This document shows positions 1,235 to 61,491 of a stretch of 64,000 bases of DNA, in pieces. The notes under the pieces were generated by a model. The model worked only from the letters and a program-made list of their open reading frames with translations. It made no database searches and was not told where the DNA came from. The stretch is taken from contig NZ_JAGHZS010000001.1 of assembly GCF_017745275.1 (NCBI RefSeq), positions 558,001 to 622,000 of the forward strand, in the 5' to 3' direction. How positions within the stretch are numbered: the stretch's first letter is position 1; every line of letters starts with the position of its first letter. A program made the translations under genes and the position numbers. This DNA is from Chitinophaga sp. GTDB taxonomy: Bacteria; Bacteroidota; Bacteroidia; Chitinophagales; Chitinophagaceae.

Positions 1235-3478
1235 ATGCATCTACCATCATTGATCATTGACCTGGCATTAATTCTAGGAGCGGCAGGCGTTATTACTTTA
1301 TTATTCAGACGGCTGAAACAGCCAATGGTGCTAGGGTACATCATCGCGGGCTTTTTAGTAGGCCCGAACTTTCATTTATTTCCTACCATCGGAGATGCAG
1401 CGGGCATAAAAACATGGTCCGAAATCGGCGTAATATTTCTTTTGTTTTCGTTAGGACTGGAATTTAGTTTCAAAAAACTAATGCGTGTGGGAGGCACCGC
1501 TACCATCACCGCATTTGTGGAAATTGCCTGTATTACCGTAGCCGGTTATTTTACCGGTCAACTGATGGGCTGGAGCTTTATGGACAGCCTGTTCCTCGGC
1601 GGTTTGCTCGCCAGTTCCTCTACTACCATTATCATACGTGCCTTTGAAGAACTGGGCATCAAGAAAAAACCCTTTACCAAAATTGTATTCGGCGTACTGG
1701 TGATAGAAGACATTGTAGTCATCCTCATGATGGTGCTCTTGTCTACCATGGCGGTGAGCCGGCAGTTTGAAGGCACCGAAATGTTATTTACCATTGCCAA
1801 ACTGATGTTCTTCCTGGCGATCTGGTTTCTCGCAGGCATCTTCCTGCTTCCTACTTTTCTCCGCAAAATGGAAAAGCATATGAATGGAGAAACCCTGCTG
1901 ATATTAAGTATCGCCCTTTGTTTAGGTATGGTAATCCTGGCCACCAAAGTAGGTTTCTCTGCGGAACTGGGTGCGTTCATCATGGGCTCTATCATCGCAG
2001 AAACTACTTCTTCCGAAAAAGTAGAACACCTGATACAACCCGTAAAAGACCTGTTTGGCGCCATCTTCTTTGTGTCCGTTGGTATGCTCATTAACCCGGA
2101 AATGATTATAGAATACAGATGGCCGGTACTGTGGATCACCTTATTAACCTTAAGCGGTAAATTTCTCAGCACCACTATTGGCGCCCTGTTATCCGGTCAG
2201 CCGCTGAAACAGGCCGTACAAGTGGGTATGAGCATGGCGCAGGTGGGCGAGTTTGCTTTCATCATTGCCACATTGGGGGTTACCCTTGGTGTTACGAGTG
2301 AATTCCTGTTCCCTGTAGCGGTAGGTGTATCTGCCATTACCACGTTTACAACACCCTATATGATCAAATTTTCCGTGCCCTTATACAACTGGCTGGAAAA
2401 AATTATTCCCAACCGCTGGCTGAATACGCTGAACCGGTATAGTGCGAGTTCACAAACCCTGCAGGCGGAAAGCGACTGGCGTATTGTATTACGCAGCTAT
2501 GTAAAAGTAATTATACTCAACACGGTAATCATCCTGGCTATTATCCTGCTGAACACCTATTATATTGGTCCTTTTGTGGTCAAATATCTTGGCTATTCCT
2601 TTGGTGTGCGATTGCTCTGCGTGGCCATTGGCATTGCCATGATGTCGCCTTTTATCTGGGCGCTGATGATACAAAAAATATCCAGCAATTCTTACAAAGC
2701 GTTGTGGCTCGATTCCAAGTACAACCACGGTCCGCTGGTAGTGGTGGAAGTGGTACGTAACATTGTTGCCGTACTGCTGGTAGGATTCCTGGTAAATCAA
2801 TATTTCCCCTTCTGGCAGGCATTGGCAGGTACTGCCATCGTATTGGCTTGCGTATTAATCGTGCTTCGTTCACAATTACAGAAATACTACAACCGTATTG
2901 AACGCCGCTTCCTGGCCAACCTGAATGCCCGCGAAGCCGCAGATGCTGCTGCTCATAAAACAGCTGCGGCCGACCTGCTTCCATGGGATGCACAGGTTTC
3001 TGAAATAGAAATAGATCCGTGGTCAAGCCTGGTGGATACCCCCCTGGTGGATTTACAGCTACGCGAGAAATATGGTATTAACATCGGCGCTATCAAAAGA
3101 GGAAATGTTACCATTTACGCTCCTACCCGTGATGAAAAATTATTTCCACACGATATCCTGACCGCCATTGGTACAGAAGCTCAACTGGAGGAATTTAACC
3201 GGGTAATCAATACCCTGAATATTGAAAGGAGTGATGATGTGGCAGATGAAAACATTGGCTTAACCAGCCTGGTGGTGGATGAACACAATGGTCTCAAAGG
3301 TCAGTCCATACGCGATTCCGGCATCCGTGAAAAAACAAAAGCACTTGTAGTAGGTATTGCCCGTGGCGGGGAGAAAATCCTGAACCCCGCTTCAGAAACA
3401 GTGTTTGAATGGGAAGATGTAGTGTGGTTGGTAGGTAACCGGAAAAAAATCCTGGAATTTTCAAGAAGTAAATCATAG
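1235..3478 (+). CDS. CPA2-family cation:proton antiporter with two TrkA-C domains
   Basis: A 747-residue inner-membrane protein of the monovalent cation:proton antiporter-2 family (Kef/YbaL type). The first 390 residues hold about 12 transmembrane helices with family motifs: LGYIIAGFLVGP, ASSSTTIIIRAFEELG, LVIEDIVVILMM (acidic ion-site residues), GFSAELGAFIMGSIIAET and MAQVGEFAFII. A further hydrophobic block follows at about 425-550. Two TrkA-C ligand-binding domains lie at about 590-660 and 668-745; no Rossmann TrkA-N domain is visible, unlike E. coli KefC. Expected role: K+ or Na+ efflux coupled to H+ entry, gated by a ligand of the TrkA-C domains. The gene is convergent with aconitase across a long hairpin repeat. 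Confidence 0.88.
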   Translation: MHLPSLIIDLALILGAAGVITLLFRRLKQPMVLGYIIAGFLVGPNFHLFPTIGDAAGIKTWSEIGVIFLLFSLGLEFSFKKLMRVGGTATITAFVEIACITVAGYFTGQLMGWSFMDSLFLGGLLASSSTTIIIRAFEELGIKKKPFTKIVFGVLVIEDIVVILMMVLLSTMAVSRQFEGTEMLFTIAKLMFFLAIWFLAGIFLLPTFLRKMEKHMNGETLLILSIALCLGMVILATKVGFSAELGAFIMGSIIAETTSSEKVEHLIQPVKDLFGAIFFVSVGMLINPEMIIEYRWPVLWITLLTLSGKFLSTTIGALLSGQPLKQAVQVGMSMAQVGEFAFIIATLGVTLGVTSEFLFPVAVGVSAITTFTTPYMIKFSVPLYNWLEKIIPNRWLNTLNRYSASSQTLQAESDWRIVLRSYVKVIILNTVIILAIILLNTYYIGPFVVKYLGYSFGVRLLCVAIGIAMMSPFIWALMIQKISSNSYKALWLDSKYNHGPLVVVEVVRNIVAVLLVGFLVNQYFPFWQALAGTAIVLACVLIVLRSQLQKYYNRIERRFLANLNAREAADAAAHKTAAADLLPWDAQVSEIEIDPWSSLVDTPLVDLQLREKYGINIGAIKRGNVTIYAPTRDEKLFPHDILTAIGTEAQLEEFNRVINTLNIERSDDVADENIGLTSLVVDEHNGLKGQSIRDSGIREKTKALVVGIARGGEKILNPASETVFEWEDVVWLVGNRKKILEFSRSKS

Positions 3479-3483
3479 AAGCG

Positions 3484-3605
3484 GAAAGCATAAAGCAGAA
3501 AGCAAAAAGCCATTGAAGCGATTGATCAGAGCGGATATTATGGTATTCATTCACTCGCGTTTGTCAATCGCTTCAATGGCTTTTTGCTTTCTGCTTTATG
3601 CTTTC
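3484..3605. repeat. Long perfect hairpin repeat, copy 1 (42-bp arms)
   Basis: The left arm 3484-3525 and right arm 3564-3605 are perfect reverse complements of 42 bp around a 38-nt centre. Each arm starts with four degenerate 7-mers (GAAAGCA, TAAAGCA, GAAAGCA, AAAAGCC), then ATTGAAGCG and ATTGA. It fills the gap between convergent genes (antiporter stop 3478, aconitase stop 3618). The right arm gives a T-rich tract on the plus strand. A related copy lies at 50600-50709. It may act as a bidirectional terminator; it could also be a mobile REP-like palindrome. The repeat is seen directly, the function is inferred. Confidence 0.85.
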
Positions 3606-3617
3606 TGCTCCCAGGAT

Positions 3618-6344
3618 TTATGCTTTCTCCAAAAACGCTCTCAGCACATACTGCAGAATACCGCCATGCCGGTAATATTCAATTTCTATCGCTGAATTCA
3701 ATTTACATTTTACGCTGAACGTAACGGGATCACCGGAAGCCCGCACCGCTGTTACGCTTAATATTTTGCCCGGAACCAGCGCGGTAGACACGCCCGTAAT
3801 GGTAAATGACTCTGTACCGGACAACTGCAGTGTCTCCGCATTTTCACCATCCATGTACTGCAACGGCAGCACGCCCATACCTACCAGGTTGCTACGGTGT
3901 ATACGTTCATAACTCTCCGCAATTACCGCTTTCACGCCCAGCAAATTGGTCCCCTTGGCTGCCCAGTCGCGGGATGATCCACTGCCATACTCTTTGCCCG
4001 CCAATATGATTAACGGCACCTTATTGGTCGCATATTGCATGGCGGCATCATAAACAGGCATTACCATGCCGGAAGGGATGACGGTAGTAAATCCACCCTC
4101 TTTGGGCGATAATTCATTTTTAATGCGCACATTGGCGAATGTACCCCGTATCATCACTTCATGATTTCCCCGGCGGGAACCATAAGAATTAAATAAGCGG
4201 GGATCGATACCGTGATCCAGCAGGTATTTACCGGCAGGCGTATCCGCCTTGAAAGATCCCGCCGGCGAAATATGATCCGTGGTAACGGAGTCGCCCAGCT
4301 TCAGCAATACACGGGCATCTTTAATATCTTCCAGCGCCGCCGGCTGCTCCGGTAGTCCATTAAAAAACGGCGCTTCCCGGATATAGGTAGAGTCATTGCT
4401 CCAGTGATAATCTTTTCCCGAAGGTGCCAGCAGTCCACGCCATTGGTCATCGCCATCAAATATCACTTTATACACACGTTCAAAATCTTCCTGCTTCACT
4501 GCTGCCGCTACCGCTTCATTAATTTCTTCCTGGGAAGGCCAGATATCGCGCAGGTATACCGGTTCACCATTGGGATCGTATCCCAGCGGATCAGTGAGCA
4601 TATCCACATCAATACGACCGGCAATCGCATAAGCTACTACCAGGAGTGGAGAAGCCAGGAAGTTCATTTTTACCTGCGGATGCACCCGGGCTTCAAAGTT
4701 ACGGTTGCCCGACAGCACAGACGCCACCACCAGGTTGCCTTTATCTACTGCTTCTGCAATCGCCGGCGGCAACGGACCACTGTTACCAATACACGAAGTA
4801 CAGCCGTAACCTACGGTGTGAAAGCGGAGTGCCTCCAATTCTGTTAACAGGCCCGCCCGTTGCAGGTATTCTGTTACTACCCTGGACCCCGGCGCCAGGC
4901 TTGTTTTCACCCAGGGCTTTACATATAAACCCCGACTAATCGCTTTCTTCGCCACCAGCCCCGCACCTATCATGACGCTGGGATTAGAGGTATTGGTGCA
5001 ACTGGTGATTGCAGCAATGGTAATTGCACCATCACTCAACACATATTCTTCGTTTTTTAACTTAATACGCACCGATTTCAGGTAATCTACTTCTACGGCG
5101 ACTTCCTCCACCGGCTTTTGTATTTCATACGTAAATGCAGTGCCGGAACCGCCCTCGGAAAGCCACGCTGTATCACGACGCTTGCCTTCCGGCGTATACA
5201 TCCGCTTAAACTCCTTGCTCAGCAATGTTTCAAACTCATTATGCAAATCCCTGACGAGGATACGATCCTGTGGCCGCTTCGGACCCGCCACAGCTGATTG
5301 AATAGTGGTCAGATCCAATTCCAGTATATCCGTATACGTGATATCTTCATTTCCATTCCGCCACAACATGTTTTCCCGGCAATACGCCTCCACCCGCGCA
5401 ATGTCTTCCGCCGAACGGTTGGTGCGGTGCATGTACTGCAATGTTTGCTGATCAATCGGGAAATAGGTAACGGTACACCCAAATTCTGGCGACATATTGG
5501 AAATGGTAGCACGATCGGGCACTGATAAGTGATCCAGTCCGTCACCGAATACTTCTACAAATTTGTCGACCACGCCATATTTGCGCAGCAACTGTGTAAT
5601 GGCCAGCACCATATCCGTTGCGGTAACCCCTTCGGTAAGGCGACCGGTTAACTTCAACCCTATCACCTGCGGACAGCTAAAATAGATCGGCTGCCCGAGG
5701 ATAGCTGCTTCTGCTTCAATGCCACCTACGCCCCAGCCTAATACACCGATGCCATTTACCATGGGTGTGTGGGAGTCTGTTCCTACCAGCGTGTCCGGAA
5801 ACAGCCAGCCATCGCGGCTAATAACGCCTTTTGCGAGGTATTCCAGGTTCACCTGGTGACAGATTCCCATCCCGGGAGGAACTACCGTAAAATTATCAAA
5901 AGCCTGTTGCGCCCATTTGAGCAGCTGATACCGCTCTTTGTTACGCTCATATTCGTAGGCAACATTTTTTCTATAGGAGTAATCGGTGCCGAAAAAGTCG
6001 ACCTGCACGGAGTGATCCACCACCAGGTCTACCGGTATAGCCGGATTAATTTTGGCGCCATCGCGGCCTTTCCGGATAACTTCCGCGCGGATAGAAGCAA
6101 TATCTACCACGGCCGCTACGCCGGTAAAATCCTGCATCAGCACCCGTGCCGGCTTAAACGGTATTTCCTTGTCGGTGCCCGCCGGATCCCAATTCACCAA
6201 CGTTTCCAGGTGTTCATCGGTGATCGCGAAGTTATCGTGGTTCCGTAATACATTTTCTAATAAGATCCTGATGGAAAAAGGAAGACGGGAAATTCGGCGG
6301 CCTTCCTGTTCCAACTTGCTGAGTGATGCGATACGTGGCTCCAT
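3618..6344 (-). CDS. acnA: Aconitate hydratase (aconitase A)
   Basis: Interconverts citrate and isocitrate through cis-aconitate in the TCA cycle, in the cytoplasm. The 908-residue length is normal for the AcnA/IRP1 class. The [4Fe-4S] cysteines are present: C449 in ITSCTNTSNPS, and C515 and C518 in YGCTSCIGNSGPL, with the 66-residue and 3-residue spacing of bacterial AcnA. The swivel domain carries the substrate motif EYGSGSSRDWAAKG. The N-terminus is short: it enters directly at SLSKLEQ...SRLPFSIRILLENVLR, and a stop codon four codons upstream rules out a much longer start. The gene is monocistronic, divergent from a methyltransferase and convergent with the antiporter. Confidence 0.96.
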   Translation of the reverse strand: MEPRIASLSKLEQEGRRISRLPFSIRILLENVLRNHDNFAITDEHLETLVNWDPAGTDKEIPFKPARVLMQDFTGVAAVVDIASIRAEVIRKGRDGAKINPAIPVDLVVDHSVQVDFFGTDYSYRKNVAYEYERNKERYQLLKWAQQAFDNFTVVPPGMGICHQVNLEYLAKGVISRDGWLFPDTLVGTDSHTPMVNGIGVLGWGVGGIEAEAAILGQPIYFSCPQVIGLKLTGRLTEGVTATDMVLAITQLLRKYGVVDKFVEVFGDGLDHLSVPDRATISNMSPEFGCTVTYFPIDQQTLQYMHRTNRSAEDIARVEAYCRENMLWRNGNEDITYTDILELDLTTIQSAVAGPKRPQDRILVRDLHNEFETLLSKEFKRMYTPEGKRRDTAWLSEGGSGTAFTYEIQKPVEEVAVEVDYLKSVRIKLKNEEYVLSDGAITIAAITSCTNTSNPSVMIGAGLVAKKAISRGLYVKPWVKTSLAPGSRVVTEYLQRAGLLTELEALRFHTVGYGCTSCIGNSGPLPPAIAEAVDKGNLVVASVLSGNRNFEARVHPQVKMNFLASPLLVVAYAIAGRIDVDMLTDPLGYDPNGEPVYLRDIWPSQEEINEAVAAAVKQEDFERVYKVIFDGDDQWRGLLAPSGKDYHWSNDSTYIREAPFFNGLPEQPAALEDIKDARVLLKLGDSVTTDHISPAGSFKADTPAGKYLLDHGIDPRLFNSYGSRRGNHEVMIRGTFANVRIKNELSPKEGGFTTVIPSGMVMPVYDAAMQYATNKVPLIILAGKEYGSGSSRDWAAKGTNLLGVKAVIAESYERIHRSNLVGMGVLPLQYMDGENAETLQLSGTESFTITGVSTALVPGKILSVTAVRASGDPVTFSVKCKLNSAIEIEYYRHGGILQYVLRAFLEKA

Positions 6345-26441: not shown

Positions 26442-26506
26442 TGTTTTAAAATATAAGGCCGCCATACACGGTAGTGTATAGCGGCCGGGGTTCGCATATT
26501 AGAGGA

Positions 26507-27808
26507 CTACTCTGATACTATCTTTCTTACCCTGTTGTTATTCTTATCCAACACATACACCACATCGTTCTTATCTACGGTTACGCCCATAGGTGCATTG
26601 AAGGCTGCCAGTCCGCCGATGCCGTCAGAGAAACCAGGCGTACCGCCTCCGGCATAGGTAATCACTTCCCAGGTATTAGGGTAAACAGCACGGATGCTCT
26701 CATCTACATTAGCACCATAGCTACCGTTACCGGCTACGTATATCATACCATTATCACCTACTGCCAATCCCCAGGGATTGGCAAACCTTGCAGCGGCGCC
26801 AATACCATTCACAAAACCGGCTGCCCCGGTTGTACCGGCAATTACGCTGCGTTCCCAGGTACCTGCTTTAAACTTCAAAATGGTTTGATCGCCATAACTG
26901 GATACATACAAATTACCATCCTTATCGAAACTCATTCCCCCGGGATTGTTAATACCACTGAGGAATGTTTCGCTGCTGCCGTCGGATTTTAATTCCATGA
27001 TGACACCATTGCCGGGATTGGAATAAAATATCCTTCCGGATTTTTTATCTACAGCAATATTCCATGGTTCCTGCGCCGCATCTCCCAGGGAAGAAGTAGT
27101 GCCATCCGGCGTAATTTTACGGATATGCCATACACCCGGATCCGCCACATATACGTTGCCCGCAGCATCCGTAGCCACTCCATAAGGAATGGAGAAGCGG
27201 GCCGTTGAGCCCTGTCCTTCATCACCACCACCGTGGCCGGGACTACCCGCCAATACGGTTGCATTACCTGCAGCATCAATTTTACGGATACAGTTATTTC
27301 CGGGATCTGTTACAAATACATTCCCCTTGTCGTCTGTAGCTATTCCCATCATTCTAAACCAGCTCTGTCCATTAAAGTTGAACATCGCATCTGCGCCTTT
27401 CCCATCTGCATATCCTGCTGTACCATTACCCGCCAATGTAGTCACAGTTCTCGTGAATATATAGTTGAATGGCGCGCTGCTCACTACACTATCTTTTCCG
27501 ATAGACACCACCAGGTTGCCTGACCCGCATCTTTTTGGTACAATCACCATAATTTGTTTGGTATTGGCTCCTACTATTTTGCAGGGCTTACCATTGATAG
27601 TAACCTTCAAAGCCGAAGTATCAGATGAAAAGTTATCACCGGTGATGAGTACTTCTGTGGTAGCGCCACCACTGGCGGGAATAAAGTCTGTCAGCACAAC
27701 AGGTTGCCCCGCGGCATGTTTCAAATCACTATCTTTTTTACAACTGGTAAAGACAGCTGCAACCAAAAAACAACCTGTAAGTATATATGAATTCAGTGGC
27801 CTGATCAT
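26507..27808 (-). CDS. IPT/TIG plus NHL-repeat lipoprotein
   Basis: A 433-residue lipoprotein (lipobox near FTSC, about residue 23). Residues about 38-115 form an IPT/TIG immunoglobulin-like domain (VVLTDFIPASGGATTEVLITGDNFSSD). The rest is a propeller of NHL repeats, with at least five copies of the type GIATDDKGNVFVTDPGNNCIRKID, GVATDAAGNVYVADPGVWHIRKI and GVTVDKNDVVYVLDKNNNRVRKI. This architecture is common directly after susD in Bacteroidota and takes the place of SusE/F surface glycan-binding proteins. It is 33 bases after susD in the same direction. Ligand unknown. Confidence 0.85.
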   Translation of the reverse strand: MIRPLNSYILTGCFLVAAVFTSCKKDSDLKHAAGQPVVLTDFIPASGGATTEVLITGDNFSSDTSALKVTINGKPCKIVGANTKQIMVIVPKRCGSGNLVVSIGKDSVVSSAPFNYIFTRTVTTLAGNGTAGYADGKGADAMFNFNGQSWFRMMGIATDDKGNVFVTDPGNNCIRKIDAAGNATVLAGSPGHGGGDEGQGSTARFSIPYGVATDAAGNVYVADPGVWHIRKITPDGTTSSLGDAAQEPWNIAVDKKSGRIFYSNPGNGVIMELKSDGSSETFLSGINNPGGMSFDKDGNLYVSSYGDQTILKFKAGTWERSVIAGTTGAAGFVNGIGAAARFANPWGLAVGDNGMIYVAGNGSYGANVDESIRAVYPNTWEVITYAGGGTPGFSDGIGGLAAFNAPMGVTVDKNDVVYVLDKNNNRVRKIVSE

Positions 27809-49282: not shown

Positions 49283-50602
49283 ATGAAAGAGCAATCCAAT
49301 ATCCCCACTACCAAAGTGGAAAGGGCTGGCAAATTCGTTACGACCGGACTTAAAGTAGGTACCAATTATATCAAACATTACACCCGCAAACTGATGGACC
49401 CTTCTACCACCAAAGAAGCGTTACACCAGGACAATGCCGCTGATATTTATGATACCCTGAGCAACCTGAAAGGCAGTGCGCTGAAAGTAGCGCAAATGCT
49501 GAGTATGGACAAAGGAATGCTTCCAAAAGCCTATACTGAGAAATTTGCTATGTCGCAATACAGCGCGCCTCCATTGAGTGGACCGCTGGTAGTCAATACT
49601 TTTGTAAAAACACTGGGTAAATCACCCACACAACTATACGATACCTTCGACCTACAGGCGTCTAACGCTGCCTCTATTGGCCAGGTACACAAAGCCACCA
49701 AAAATGGTCAGCCGCTGGCTGTAAAAATTCAATACCCCGGCGTAGCCAACAGCGTAAAATCTGATCTGCGTATCGTGAAACCCTTTGCCATCCGCATTGT
49801 GGGTATGAACGAAGTAGATATGGATAAATACTTCGACGAAATAGAAAGTAAGCTGCTGGAAGAAACCGATTATAAACTGGAACTACGCCGCTCCATGGAC
49901 CTTTCCCAGGCCTGCGCACATATTCCTAACCTGCGGTTTCCCGGCTACTACCCGGAAATGTCGTCCGACCGCATTATTACCATGGACTGGCTCGATGGGC
50001 AGCACCTGAAAGAATTTTTGCTCACCAACCCCAGCCAGGAAGCCAGGGATAAAATCGGGCAAGCCCTGTGGGATTTCTACCAATTCCAGGTGCATAGCCT
50101 TAAACAGGTACATGCCGATCCACATCCCGGCAACTTCCTCATGCGCCCCGATGGCACCGTAGGCATCTTCGACTTTGGCTGTGTGAAAGAAATTCCGGAA
50201 GATTTTTATATCAACTATTTCCTGTTGGTAGATAAAGAAGTACTGAAAGATGAAAAACGGCGACATGAGATTTATACCAACCTGGAAATGATCCACCCCA
50301 CAGATACGCCTAAAGAAGTGGAATTCTTTTCCGGCCTCTTTCAACATATGATTGATTTACTCACCTTACCATTTACGCTGGAACACTTCGACTTTGGTAA
50401 TGAAGCATATTTCAATGAAATATATGCCTACATGGATGAGTTATACAACATGAAAGAAATCCGCGACTCCAAAGTAGCCCGCGGTTCCAGGCATAGCCTC
50501 TACATTAACCGTACTTATTTCGGCTTATACTCCATTCTCAGTGACCTGAAAGCCAATGTGATTACAGGCCCCGGCAGAATACAGGAGTTGCAGAAAGCGT
50601 AA
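49283..50602 (+). CDS. ABC1/AarF/UbiB-family atypical protein kinase-like protein
   Basis: A 439-residue member of the UbiB/ADCK family. Family motifs: LKVAQMLSMDKGMLPKAY (KxGQ-helix equivalent), NAASIGQVHKATKNGQPLAVKI (alanine-rich nucleotide loop and VAIK-like Lys), ESKLLEETDYKLEL, QVHADPHPGNFLM (catalytic loop) and GIFDFGCVKE (DFG). Unlike many UbiB proteins it has no C-terminal membrane helices. Family members support quinone or lipid metabolism through ATPase/kinase activity; the substrate is unknown. The last codons and the stop (50600-50602) lie in the flank and left arm of a long hairpin repeat. Confidence 0.9.
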   Translation: MKEQSNIPTTKVERAGKFVTTGLKVGTNYIKHYTRKLMDPSTTKEALHQDNAADIYDTLSNLKGSALKVAQMLSMDKGMLPKAYTEKFAMSQYSAPPLSGPLVVNTFVKTLGKSPTQLYDTFDLQASNAASIGQVHKATKNGQPLAVKIQYPGVANSVKSDLRIVKPFAIRIVGMNEVDMDKYFDEIESKLLEETDYKLELRRSMDLSQACAHIPNLRFPGYYPEMSSDRIITMDWLDGQHLKEFLLTNPSQEARDKIGQALWDFYQFQVHSLKQVHADPHPGNFLMRPDGTVGIFDFGCVKEIPEDFYINYFLLVDKEVLKDEKRRHEIYTNLEMIHPTDTPKEVEFFSGLFQHMIDLLTLPFTLEHFDFGNEAYFNEIYAYMDELYNMKEIRDSKVARGSRHSLYINRTYFGLYSILSDLKANVITGPGRIQELQKA

Positions 50603-50709
50603 AGCAGAAAGCCTAAAGCAAAAAGCTATTGAGGCGAGTGATCAAAGCGTATAAATATCCGCAATAATCACTCGCCTCAATAGCTTTTTGCTTTAGGCTT
50701 TCTGCTTTA
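50600..50709. repeat. Long perfect hairpin repeat, copy 2 (43-bp arms)
   Basis: Left arm 50600-50642 and right arm 50667-50709 are perfect reverse complements around a 24-nt centre. The arm is TAAAGCA, GAAAGCC, TAAAGCA, AAAAGCT, ATTGAGGCG, AGTGAT: the same architecture as copy 1 (3484-3605). Seven bases differ from copy 1, each matched by a change in the other arm. The centres also share TGATCARAGCG. It sits between convergent genes; the ABC1 stop codon is its first three bases and the desaturase stop follows eight bases after its end. Confidence 0.85.
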
Positions 50710-50716
50710 TGCTTTA

Positions 50717-51496
50717 TTAAAATGTCTTTTTCTTCTCCAGCTCTGGCAACGCTTCATCTATGCGTTTACATAACTCTGGTAATTTGATAGTAGGCACCGC
50801 AGGAAACAAGTGATGCTCCAGGTGATAAAACATACTGAAAGTAATCGTGTTCTTCCATCCTGTACGCTGCGTTCTGGCAATAGTGTCATGGTCACAGTCG
50901 TGGTGCACACTCCATACAGCGAAAAAAGCCATCATCAACTCCCCGATCAGCATCACTATGATGTGGTACACCAGGAAATGTACCTGGAAATAAAACACCA
51001 GTCCTGTAAATACCACAATAGCAGCTAACTCCAGCAACATATTACGGCGGTAGTTCTTATTGCCCAGTTGCCAGGTGACCCGGTGAATCAGCCACATATG
51101 CTTAGGTCCGTAGCAAATGGCACCCAGCGCGCTCATACCGGCCGACTTACCTTCGTAATCTTCTTCAGACAAACAATATTTGTGATGACGGATGTGGTTA
51201 AATTTCACCGCATGAATAGAAGCCATCATCAGGATGCTGTTGAGAAACAGGGTAACCCAGGTCAGTTGCTTGTTAGTACCGAGTGATTGGTGAAAACCGT
51301 TATGTACTTGTCGCAATGCCGTCAGGAAAAAAATGGCCGATAAAGGCATCGCCAACATGTAGTATCCATAATACGCTAGTACCCAGGAACCAAGCGCCCA
51401 GGGAATAGAAATATTATTTTCGATGAGCATTTCCCGGACAGACAAGCGGGTTAAGTCTTTCCAGGCAATTTGACGGGTAATATCAGCAGCTGCCAT
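50717..51496 (-). CDS. Membrane fatty acid desaturase
   Basis: A 259-residue integral membrane di-iron enzyme that introduces a double bond into acyl chains. The three histidine boxes are HNGFH (about residues 67-71), HIRHH (about 101-105) and HLEHH (about 225-229), with hydrophobic helices between them. Regiospecificity is not predictable. It is divergent from a membrane LytS-type kinase and LytTR regulator, with a tandem 9-bp repeat between them, a layout reminiscent of DesK-DesR control of desaturase in Bacillus. Convergent with the ABC1 kinase gene across a hairpin repeat. Confidence 0.88.
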   Translation of the reverse strand: MAAADITRQIAWKDLTRLSVREMLIENNISIPWALGSWVLAYYGYYMLAMPLSAIFFLTALRQVHNGFHQSLGTNKQLTWVTLFLNSILMMASIHAVKFNHIRHHKYCLSEEDYEGKSAGMSALGAICYGPKHMWLIHRVTWQLGNKNYRRNMLLELAAIVVFTGLVFYFQVHFLVYHIIVMLIGELMMAFFAVWSVHHDCDHDTIARTQRTGWKNTITFSMFYHLEHHLFPAVPTIKLPELCKRIDEALPELEKKKTF

Positions 51497-61263: not shown

Positions 61264-61322
61264 ATGAAGCAGTTATTTGTACTGCCTAAAAATAAACAAT
61301 TTAGTTATTGGCTTAAAATAGA

Positions 61323-61355
61323 AGAGGGAGTCTCATTTATTTTGAGACTCCCTCT
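61323..61355. terminator. Strong hairpin terminator
   Basis: A perfect 13-bp stem (61323-61335 with 61343-61355, 7-nt loop). The plus strand continues with a T-run; the minus strand reads TTCTATTTT. It separates the Rossmann-fold gene from the AraC gene, both on the minus strand. Confidence 0.75.
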
Positions 61356-61491
61356 TTTTTATTTGGACCCGGGATAGGAATATTCCAGTCATCTCATAAC
61401 CTACAACTGTTACACTGTTAAAGTAACAAGATGCAAAGTTACATGCATAAAGGGATATAACATAGCCCTGGTATCCCGAAGGTTACCAATA

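Follow-up and report, generated by a model that had tools for sequence, protein, structure and literature searches.

Long AAAGC-heptad hairpins at the gene ends of a Chitinophaga genome as candidate bidirectional intrinsic terminators

Bidirectional intrinsic terminators are described in the available portions of PMC1852404 and PMC1590033 with stems of 6-8 bp, or of 30-50 nt in low-GC firmicutes. In Neisseria and the Pasteurellaceae, a repeated uptake word occurs in inverted pairs that form terminator hairpins, mostly between convergent genes (PMC1852404, same portion). In the text available from PMC3733652, REP sequences, the partners of RAYTs, are palindromes scattered in hundreds of copies over intergenic regions, mostly in convergent and same-strand gaps, and the Ype (Yersinia) and Efa (Enterococcus) repeats are presented in the same part of PMC1590033 as hairpins larger than REPs that favor the 3' ends of coding sequences. 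The Chitinophaga hairpins reported here share with bidirectional terminators an A-rich stretch before the stem, a U-rich stretch after it, enrichment in convergent gaps and proximity to stop codons; with the paired uptake signals, a repeated word in inverted pairs and a preference for convergent gaps; with REPs, dispersion between genes in hundreds of copies; and with Ype and Efa, a large hairpin and a preference for the 3' ends of coding sequences.

The window analysed is the whole stretch of 64,000 nucleotides taken from a Chitinophaga sp. genome (assembly GCF_017745275.1, contig NZ_JAGHZS010000001.1, positions 558,001 to 622,000), in which two such hairpins are located (Table 1). Copy 1 has arms of 42 bp without any mismatch around a 38-nt centre. 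In the same register, copy 2 also displays 42-bp arms free of mismatches, around a 26-nt centre, and its arms extend further, with one mismatch, when the outer pairing is added. The copies differ at seven positions, five of them by transversion, and each is altered in both arms, while the motif TGATCARAGCG is common to the two centres. Folding z-scores of -12.9 (copy 1) and -15.4 (copy 2) were obtained, none of 200 shuffles being equally stable in either case. Both copies are flanked by convergent genes belonging to unrelated families. The long perfect arms, the seven paired differences, the common centre and the siting between unrelated convergent genes had all been reported in the first-pass annotation and are confirmed exactly. 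ABC1 ends inside the left arm of copy 2: its stop codon (TAA, 50600-50602) belongs to that arm, and the heptads supply the last residues and the stop (Q, K, A and stop). No match to Rfam 15 was found across the window at the gathering score. A terminator scan returned no site at either copy, the loops accepted by the scan being limited to 3-8 and those present here measuring 24-38 nt. Elsewhere in the window, a 21-bp inverted repeat with a T-run (TGAGACTCCCTC, 61315-61363) looks like an ordinary short terminator.

Table 1. Hairpin parts and flanking genes in the window, contig ends bearing a heptad arm, and genome codes.
Feature	Position	Strand	Remark
Copy 1, left arm	3484..3525	+	four AAAGC heptad units, then CATTGAAGCGATTGA
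Copy 1, centre (38 nt)	3526..3563	no strand	starts with TCAGAGCG
Copy 1, right arm	3564..3605	+	exact complement of the left arm; GCTTTTTGCTTT after the core
Copy 2, left arm, extended	50594..50642	+	perfect part 50600-50641
Copy 2, centre (24 nt between extended arms)	50643..50666	no strand	
Copy 2, right arm, extended	50667..50715	+	perfect part 50668-50709
Na_H_Exchanger with TrkA_C	1235..3478	+	left of copy 1; start at 1250 by a second gene caller
Aconitase	3618..6344	-	right of copy 1, convergent
ABC1 kinase-like	49283..50602	+	left of copy 2; final codons within heptads
Fatty acid desaturase	50717..51496	-	right of copy 2, convergent
Contig ends with heptad arm	starts of C2, C3, C4, C5, C16, C17, C18, C19, C21, C22, C23; end of C2		
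Genome codes			G002 = C. polysaccharea CSUR P9684; G004 = C. ginsengisegetis; G018 = C. eiseniae Ak56
Genome codes			G019 = C. polysaccharea 1209; G024 = C. rupis; G027 = C. niastensis; G034 = C. hostae

These two copies belong to a large family. Over the 7.94 Mb of the genome (23 contigs), the pattern AAAGCNNAAAGCNNAAAGC is found 614 times in the forward and 618 times in the reverse direction, and the same pattern read backwards gives no match in either direction. The genome-wide number of hairpins built from AAAGCNN heptads is estimated at about 300-360, from a pattern ratio yielding 293-298 and a density yielding 362; the latter rests on 44 copies in 964 kb, which remain from a 1.264-Mb sample once the roughly 300 kb (C1, C2) picked for listed hits are set aside. 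The first-pass annotation had proposed a family and would have given it up had no further copies existed; they are present in the hundreds. The sample contains 66 AAAGC hairpins with arms of 26-82 bp and loops of 9-147 nt, the number of units being equal in both arms in 35 of them. When runs of three or more units are counted as heptad arms, 116 of 132 have a partner and the 16 lone ones are degenerate or truncated copies, runs within another palindrome, or arms cut at the starts of contigs C2, C16 and C21. Because the left arms comprise 54 distinct unit strings among the 66 copies, the sample shows no fresh burst of identical copies. Some copies in this genome are nested, with AAAGC repeats outside, GATT repeats inside and a similar junction.

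The hairpins are placed at gene 3' ends. With genes called over the 1.264 Mb by a home-made hexamer caller, the orientation of the flanking genes, whose plotting had been advised at first pass, is convergent for 36 of the 66 copies, same-strand for 22 and divergent for eight, and no copy is centred within a gene. Convergent junctions represent 168 of all 957 junctions yet host 36 of the 66 copies, and 58 copies lie in a convergent gap or just past a stop codon. All 22 same-strand copies are found at most 21 nt from the upstream stop and farther from the next start. The eight divergent copies, situated 21-74 nt from the nearer start, argue against a pure terminator role. Among 94 flanking stop codons, 72 end in or next to an arm, 39 of them inside it and 33 outside at a distance of 0-7 nt. 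Copies scattered at random inside genes would have spoken against a terminator family; of the 132 heptad arms, 111 are outside called genes, 20 extend across a gene end and a single one is wholly inside, at the 3' end of the gene. An earlier pass relying on plain open reading frames (33 copies in 464 kb) gave 18 convergent, eight same-strand and six divergent copies and one inside, this last becoming divergent under the hexamer calls. Palindromes of any family, of which 106 were found in the sample and all placed, occupy 58 of the 168 convergent gaps and 52 of the 84 gaps of at least 90 bp. A further family, made of AATTACG heptads, is present between convergent genes (C1a 76271-76370, C1b 26506-26629).

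The distribution of the family was assessed in 36 Chitinophaga genomes. Forward counts of the AAAGC pattern amount to 614 in this genome, 257 in C. rupis, 131 in both C. eiseniae Ak56 and C. hostae, 93 in C. polysaccharea 1209 and 0-9 in the other 31; in 23 genomes of the same order, one reverse match was obtained in each of two. A covariance model of the hairpin, a search suggested by the first-pass annotation, disclosed further copies, with matches in 10 of the 36 genus genomes and at least 117 candidates scored in each of this genome, C. eiseniae Ak56, C. polysaccharea 1209 and C. hostae. The arms are of several types, namely AAAGCNN, TTAGCNN and GATTTNN with a period of 7, GCAAAGNN with a period of 8 and GATTNNNNN with a period of 9. 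TTAGCNN is counted 238 times in C. hostae, 229 in genome G020, 177 in C. niastensis, 159 here and 56 in C. rupis; GATTNNNNN 181 times in C. niastensis, 161 in C. hostae, 77 in C. polysaccharea CSUR P9684, 25 in C. ginsengisegetis and once here; the GATTTNN count is high in C. rupis (99). Two other patterns are of limited use: GATTTNNGATTTNNGATTT performs poorly where the TTAGC family is common and is unreliable since its backward control matches too (11 matches and 11 backward here), and the core pattern AGCGGAGATN{10,40}ATCTCCGCT, found 13 times per strand here and once in each of four others among 395 genomes of the class, is uninformative on the genus as no other Chitinophaga was part of that draw. 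A similar core can be recognized across the palindrome families (TATTGTAGCGAATGATC, AAATGCAGCGGAGATCAT, AATTGAAGCGGAGATG, GGAGCGGAGATCA, GATGAGCGGAGATTTTAGCGG), a resemblance judged by eye, without a statistical test. An ABC1 tree built from 30 loci places most palindrome-rich species in one clade, with genome G020 and C. rupis apart, and makes this genome and C. hostae sisters with a support of 0.78. The two C. polysaccharea records (CSUR P9684 and 1209) are not sisters on that tree and the two C. eiseniae records are 94 and 90% identical to the query; some of the species names appear to be incorrect. Around the relatives of ABC1, 66 loci contain 31 palindromes, of which 17 are same-strand, eight convergent, three divergent, two at an edge and one inside a gene.

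Orthologous gaps reveal a turnover of hairpins between species. In the 14 species possessing a close ortholog of aconitase, the 3' side of the gene carries the AAAGC hairpin here, GATT palindromes in C. hostae and C. niastensis, short ordinary G+C-rich hairpins in C. ginsengisegetis, C. eiseniae Ak56 and C. polysaccharea 1209, and no gap at all in genomes G016 and G022. At the 30 ABC1 loci, the AAAGC hairpin follows the gene here and in C. hostae, C. eiseniae Ak56 and C. polysaccharea 1209, and a GCAAAG palindrome does so in genome G029. In four relatives devoid of the hairpin (C. arvensicola, C. ginsengisegetis, C. polysaccharea P9684 and C. niastensis), ABC1 is four codons longer and followed by a short G+C-rich hairpin, so that relatives display a short hairpin at both of the gaps examined in the window; C. 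hostae combines the longer gene end with the AAAGC hairpin. Eight of the 13 palindrome sites of our contig C11 could be found with both flanks in a relative, six of them being AAAGC sites, and the AAAGC hairpin is present in the relative at one of these six, where C. eiseniae Ak56 and C. polysaccharea 1209 also have it. In relatives, the corresponding gap often holds either a short ordinary hairpin or a long palindrome whose repeats are of another type. In C. hostae, the region of contig C13 orthologous to positions 75753-75990 of C11 contains several direct TTAGC half-unit repeats ending with AATGCAGCGAACC, and no palindrome.

The anatomy of the element was deduced from an alignment of 24 of the 32 copies listed for this genome, namely those with a short loop and at least three units in each arm. 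The AAAGC words are invariant and the dinucleotides between them free, the innermost unit being mostly AAAAAGC, followed by YATTGNAGCGRNTGA. Four A residues in the left arm and four T residues in the right one are present in 52 of the 66 copies, the T-run lying just past the core stem and within the full stem; in 21 of the 24 aligned copies the innermost pair is A-U with a run of five T. Across 34 aligned pairs, 97.3% of the cells are paired, 10 pairs exhibit two-sided changes (5.2 in shuffles) and 45 cells are two-sided (12.3 in shuffles), and none of 500 shuffles reached any of the five pairing measures used. As many as 21 of the 34 pairs never vary, which indicates that the words themselves are kept, beyond pairing alone. 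Transversion switches account for 31 of the 45 two-sided changes, and the one-sided states consist of 8 G-U, 9 A-C and 13 others. Mismatches over the 66 copies are 17 G-T, 18 A-C and 26 others, and the sense strand of same-strand copies shows 7 G-U and 8 A-C, hence no preference for G-U. Within one element, the dinucleotides of the units are the same in both arms in 183 of 240 cases, whereas the arms of different elements agree in 37% on average.

The predominance of transversion switches and the lack of a G-U excess point to arm-to-arm copying in DNA over stepwise RNA compensation, and such copying is the best-supported reason for the perfect arms, as far as sequence comparison can tell. The compensatory changes announced at first pass are matched in both arms, but a stepwise origin is the less supported one. 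That ordinary compensatory selection on the RNA stem would have kept the arms matched without any copying appears unlikely: selection does act, as the 21 invariant pairs indicate, and two-sided changes exceed those of all 500 shuffles, but the switches and one-sided states just listed differ from those of Bacillus cereus terminators, in which AU-GC exchanges form 79% of switches and 89.5% of the resolved ones passed through a G-U intermediate (PMC5381666, available part), a comparison that is indirect as paralogs are compared here and cells, not events, are counted. The likeliest function, judged from sequence, is bidirectional intrinsic termination, and we regard the hairpins as probable dispersed terminators of this kind, whose arms would be matched mainly by template-switch DNA copying while selection keeps the hairpin. 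A polymerase arriving from either gene would first transcribe YATTGNAGCGRNTGA and its complement, forming the core stem-loop, before reaching the U-rich 3' arm, whose first letters are GCUUUUUGCUUU in most aligned copies; the element being a palindrome, this order also holds on the opposite strand, and the paired heptad arrays would act as mirrored A-rich and U-rich tails. One arm copied from the other by template switching at replication would give near-perfect arms, and selection for a hairpin at the end of genes would retain the element. The bidirectional terminator family suggested at first pass agrees with the existence of a family and with its placement at gene 3' ends, and is at odds with the empty terminator scan. 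It counts against termination that the T-run takes part in the pairing of the full stem, and termination leaves the conservation of the words unexplained since an ordinary terminator can do without arms of 40 bp and without constant AAAGC words. Perfect stems of 26-82 bp directly past stop codons would equally suit RNA-processing or mRNA-protecting 3' hairpins, such as RNase III substrates or barriers to 3' exonucleases, and small palindromic families near the 3' ends of coding sequences are discussed as mRNA-stability elements in the available part of PMC1590033; this explanation is nevertheless improbable in view of the strong bias for convergent gaps (36 of 66 copies against 168 of 957 junctions), of the A-run and T-run beside the core in 52 of 66 copies, as expected of a two-way terminator, and of the absence of a sense-strand G-U preference. 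Invariant words separated by variable dinucleotides suggest that something reads the words, and paired uptake signals are enriched in the tail-to-tail gaps of N. meningitidis (PMC1852404, portion available); a DNA-uptake or protein-binding signal paired incidentally, as in Neisseria and Pasteurellaceae terminators, is very improbable all the same, and the uptake signal was rejected because arms of at least three units avoid genes (one of 132 wholly within a called gene) and 116 of the 132 are paired.

That the hairpins have spread among gene ends is clear from the outcome. The first-pass annotation had advised looking for a RAYT-type transposase, and a REP mobilised by RAYT was rejected: the Y1_Tnp profile (PF01797) has no match in this draft assembly, six small contigs of which read N at their start, and matches in five of 14 control genomes, and GTAG, which 13 of the 66 copies have no farther than 14 nt beyond an arm, often as part of a stop codon, is no constant tag. 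The MITE-like mobile palindrome also evoked at that stage finds agreement in the dispersion of the copies and their patchy occurrence among related species, and none in target-site duplication, which is absent at the outer ends (longest shared flank word of 3.20 on average, against 3.22 in shuffles). That the elements are primarily selfish, non-autonomous MITE-like palindromes surviving outside genes, their siting at gene ends resulting from target choice and purging and termination being a side effect or later co-option, is a serious possibility that we nevertheless hold to be somewhat doubtful. It would account for the 614 forward matches here against 0-9 in 31 of 36 genus genomes, for dominant families that differ among related species (GATTNNNNN, 161 in C. 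hostae and one here), for nested copies with AAAGC arms outside, GATT arms inside and a common junction, and for the AAAGC hairpin being found in a relative at only one of the six C11 AAAGC sites with both flanks. It is weakened by the missing target duplication and Y1_Tnp gene, by the variety of left-arm strings (54 in 66 copies) and by the position of all 22 same-strand copies at stop codons, which random intergenic survival would not produce. Nor was an autonomous element framed by lone arms recognized among the 16 unpaired arms of the 1.264-Mb sample, in which contigs often break at hairpins. Among the contigs of at least 30 kb, 16 ends were sampled and 12 have a heptad arm within 200 bases, several starting at a hairpin centre; the same arm at a hairpin centre begins C3 and C22, the start of C2 and C19, and the end of C2 and C23, like two sides of one hairpin. 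Such breaks imply that the assembly may lack copies carrying a longer insert. Some arm-bearing contig ends adjoin ends resembling insertion sequences (TGAAATGCCCCCTAAAAGTTGGACACTTTTAGG; CCTTTAGGGTGCACTTCA), located past the core and inside the hairpin at the starts of C21, C16 and C18 and in the aconitase hairpin of C. hostae; insertion sequences may therefore target the loops. The sequence GACGACTCA, found at the starts of contigs C4-C6, was considered as a companion of the hairpins and discarded, none of the 66 copies having it nearby.

Returning to dispersed bidirectional terminators as the preferred reading, a broader proposal, tentative and in our opinion rather unlikely to hold as a whole, would be a Chitinophaga superfamily of self-spreading terminators with one core (around TGNAGCGRANGATCA) and interchangeable arms, amplified in a lineage-specific manner, displacing host terminators and older palindromes, moved by a non-RAYT agent and rewritten in both arms by template switching. 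Should the termination reading be true, a large share of convergent gene ends would be served by one repeated, fast-replaced hairpin, and the birth and spread of terminators could be tested between sister species. The two-sided transversions of many copies would preserve a natural trace of one arm of an inverted repeat being copied from the other. The hairpins also supply candidate two-way terminators for Bacteroidota, and many breaks between contigs in the draft assembly fall at them (12 of the 16 ends sampled).

In one open-access library, no paper describing Chitinophaga palindromes was found by title or abstract, and the literal string AAAGCATAAAGC matched only in papers unrelated by title; Chitinophaga is absent from the main text, as available, of a REP survey (PMC12306157) and of a study of hairpins in 118,019 genomes (PMC13155455). 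As described in the portions of the sources cited at the outset, bidirectional terminators are short single structures, whereas the Chitinophaga hairpins have arms of 26-82 bp made of a repeated word, with one family present about 300 times. The uptake word of Neisseria and the Pasteurellaceae also occurs singly; the Chitinophaga arms are tandem and nearly always paired, and their word varies by species. REPs measure 20-40 bp and bear a GTAG or CGTC tag, in contrast to the longer stems found here without a constant tag or a Y1_Tnp gene. For Ype and Efa, the available text of PMC1590033 describes neither short-period arms nor an exchange of arms from species to species. Quasipalindrome correction by template switching, in which the arms of inverted repeats are made identical by copying (PMC7202029 and PMC8604942, in their available parts), is named as the likely process for the Chitinophaga hairpins. 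The hairpins are nearest in kind to bidirectional intrinsic terminators and small palindromic repeats and are not a RAYT-dependent REP; judging from the genomes compared, their new feature is a set of arms with a short period, which surround a similar core and vary by exchange among the species of a single genus.
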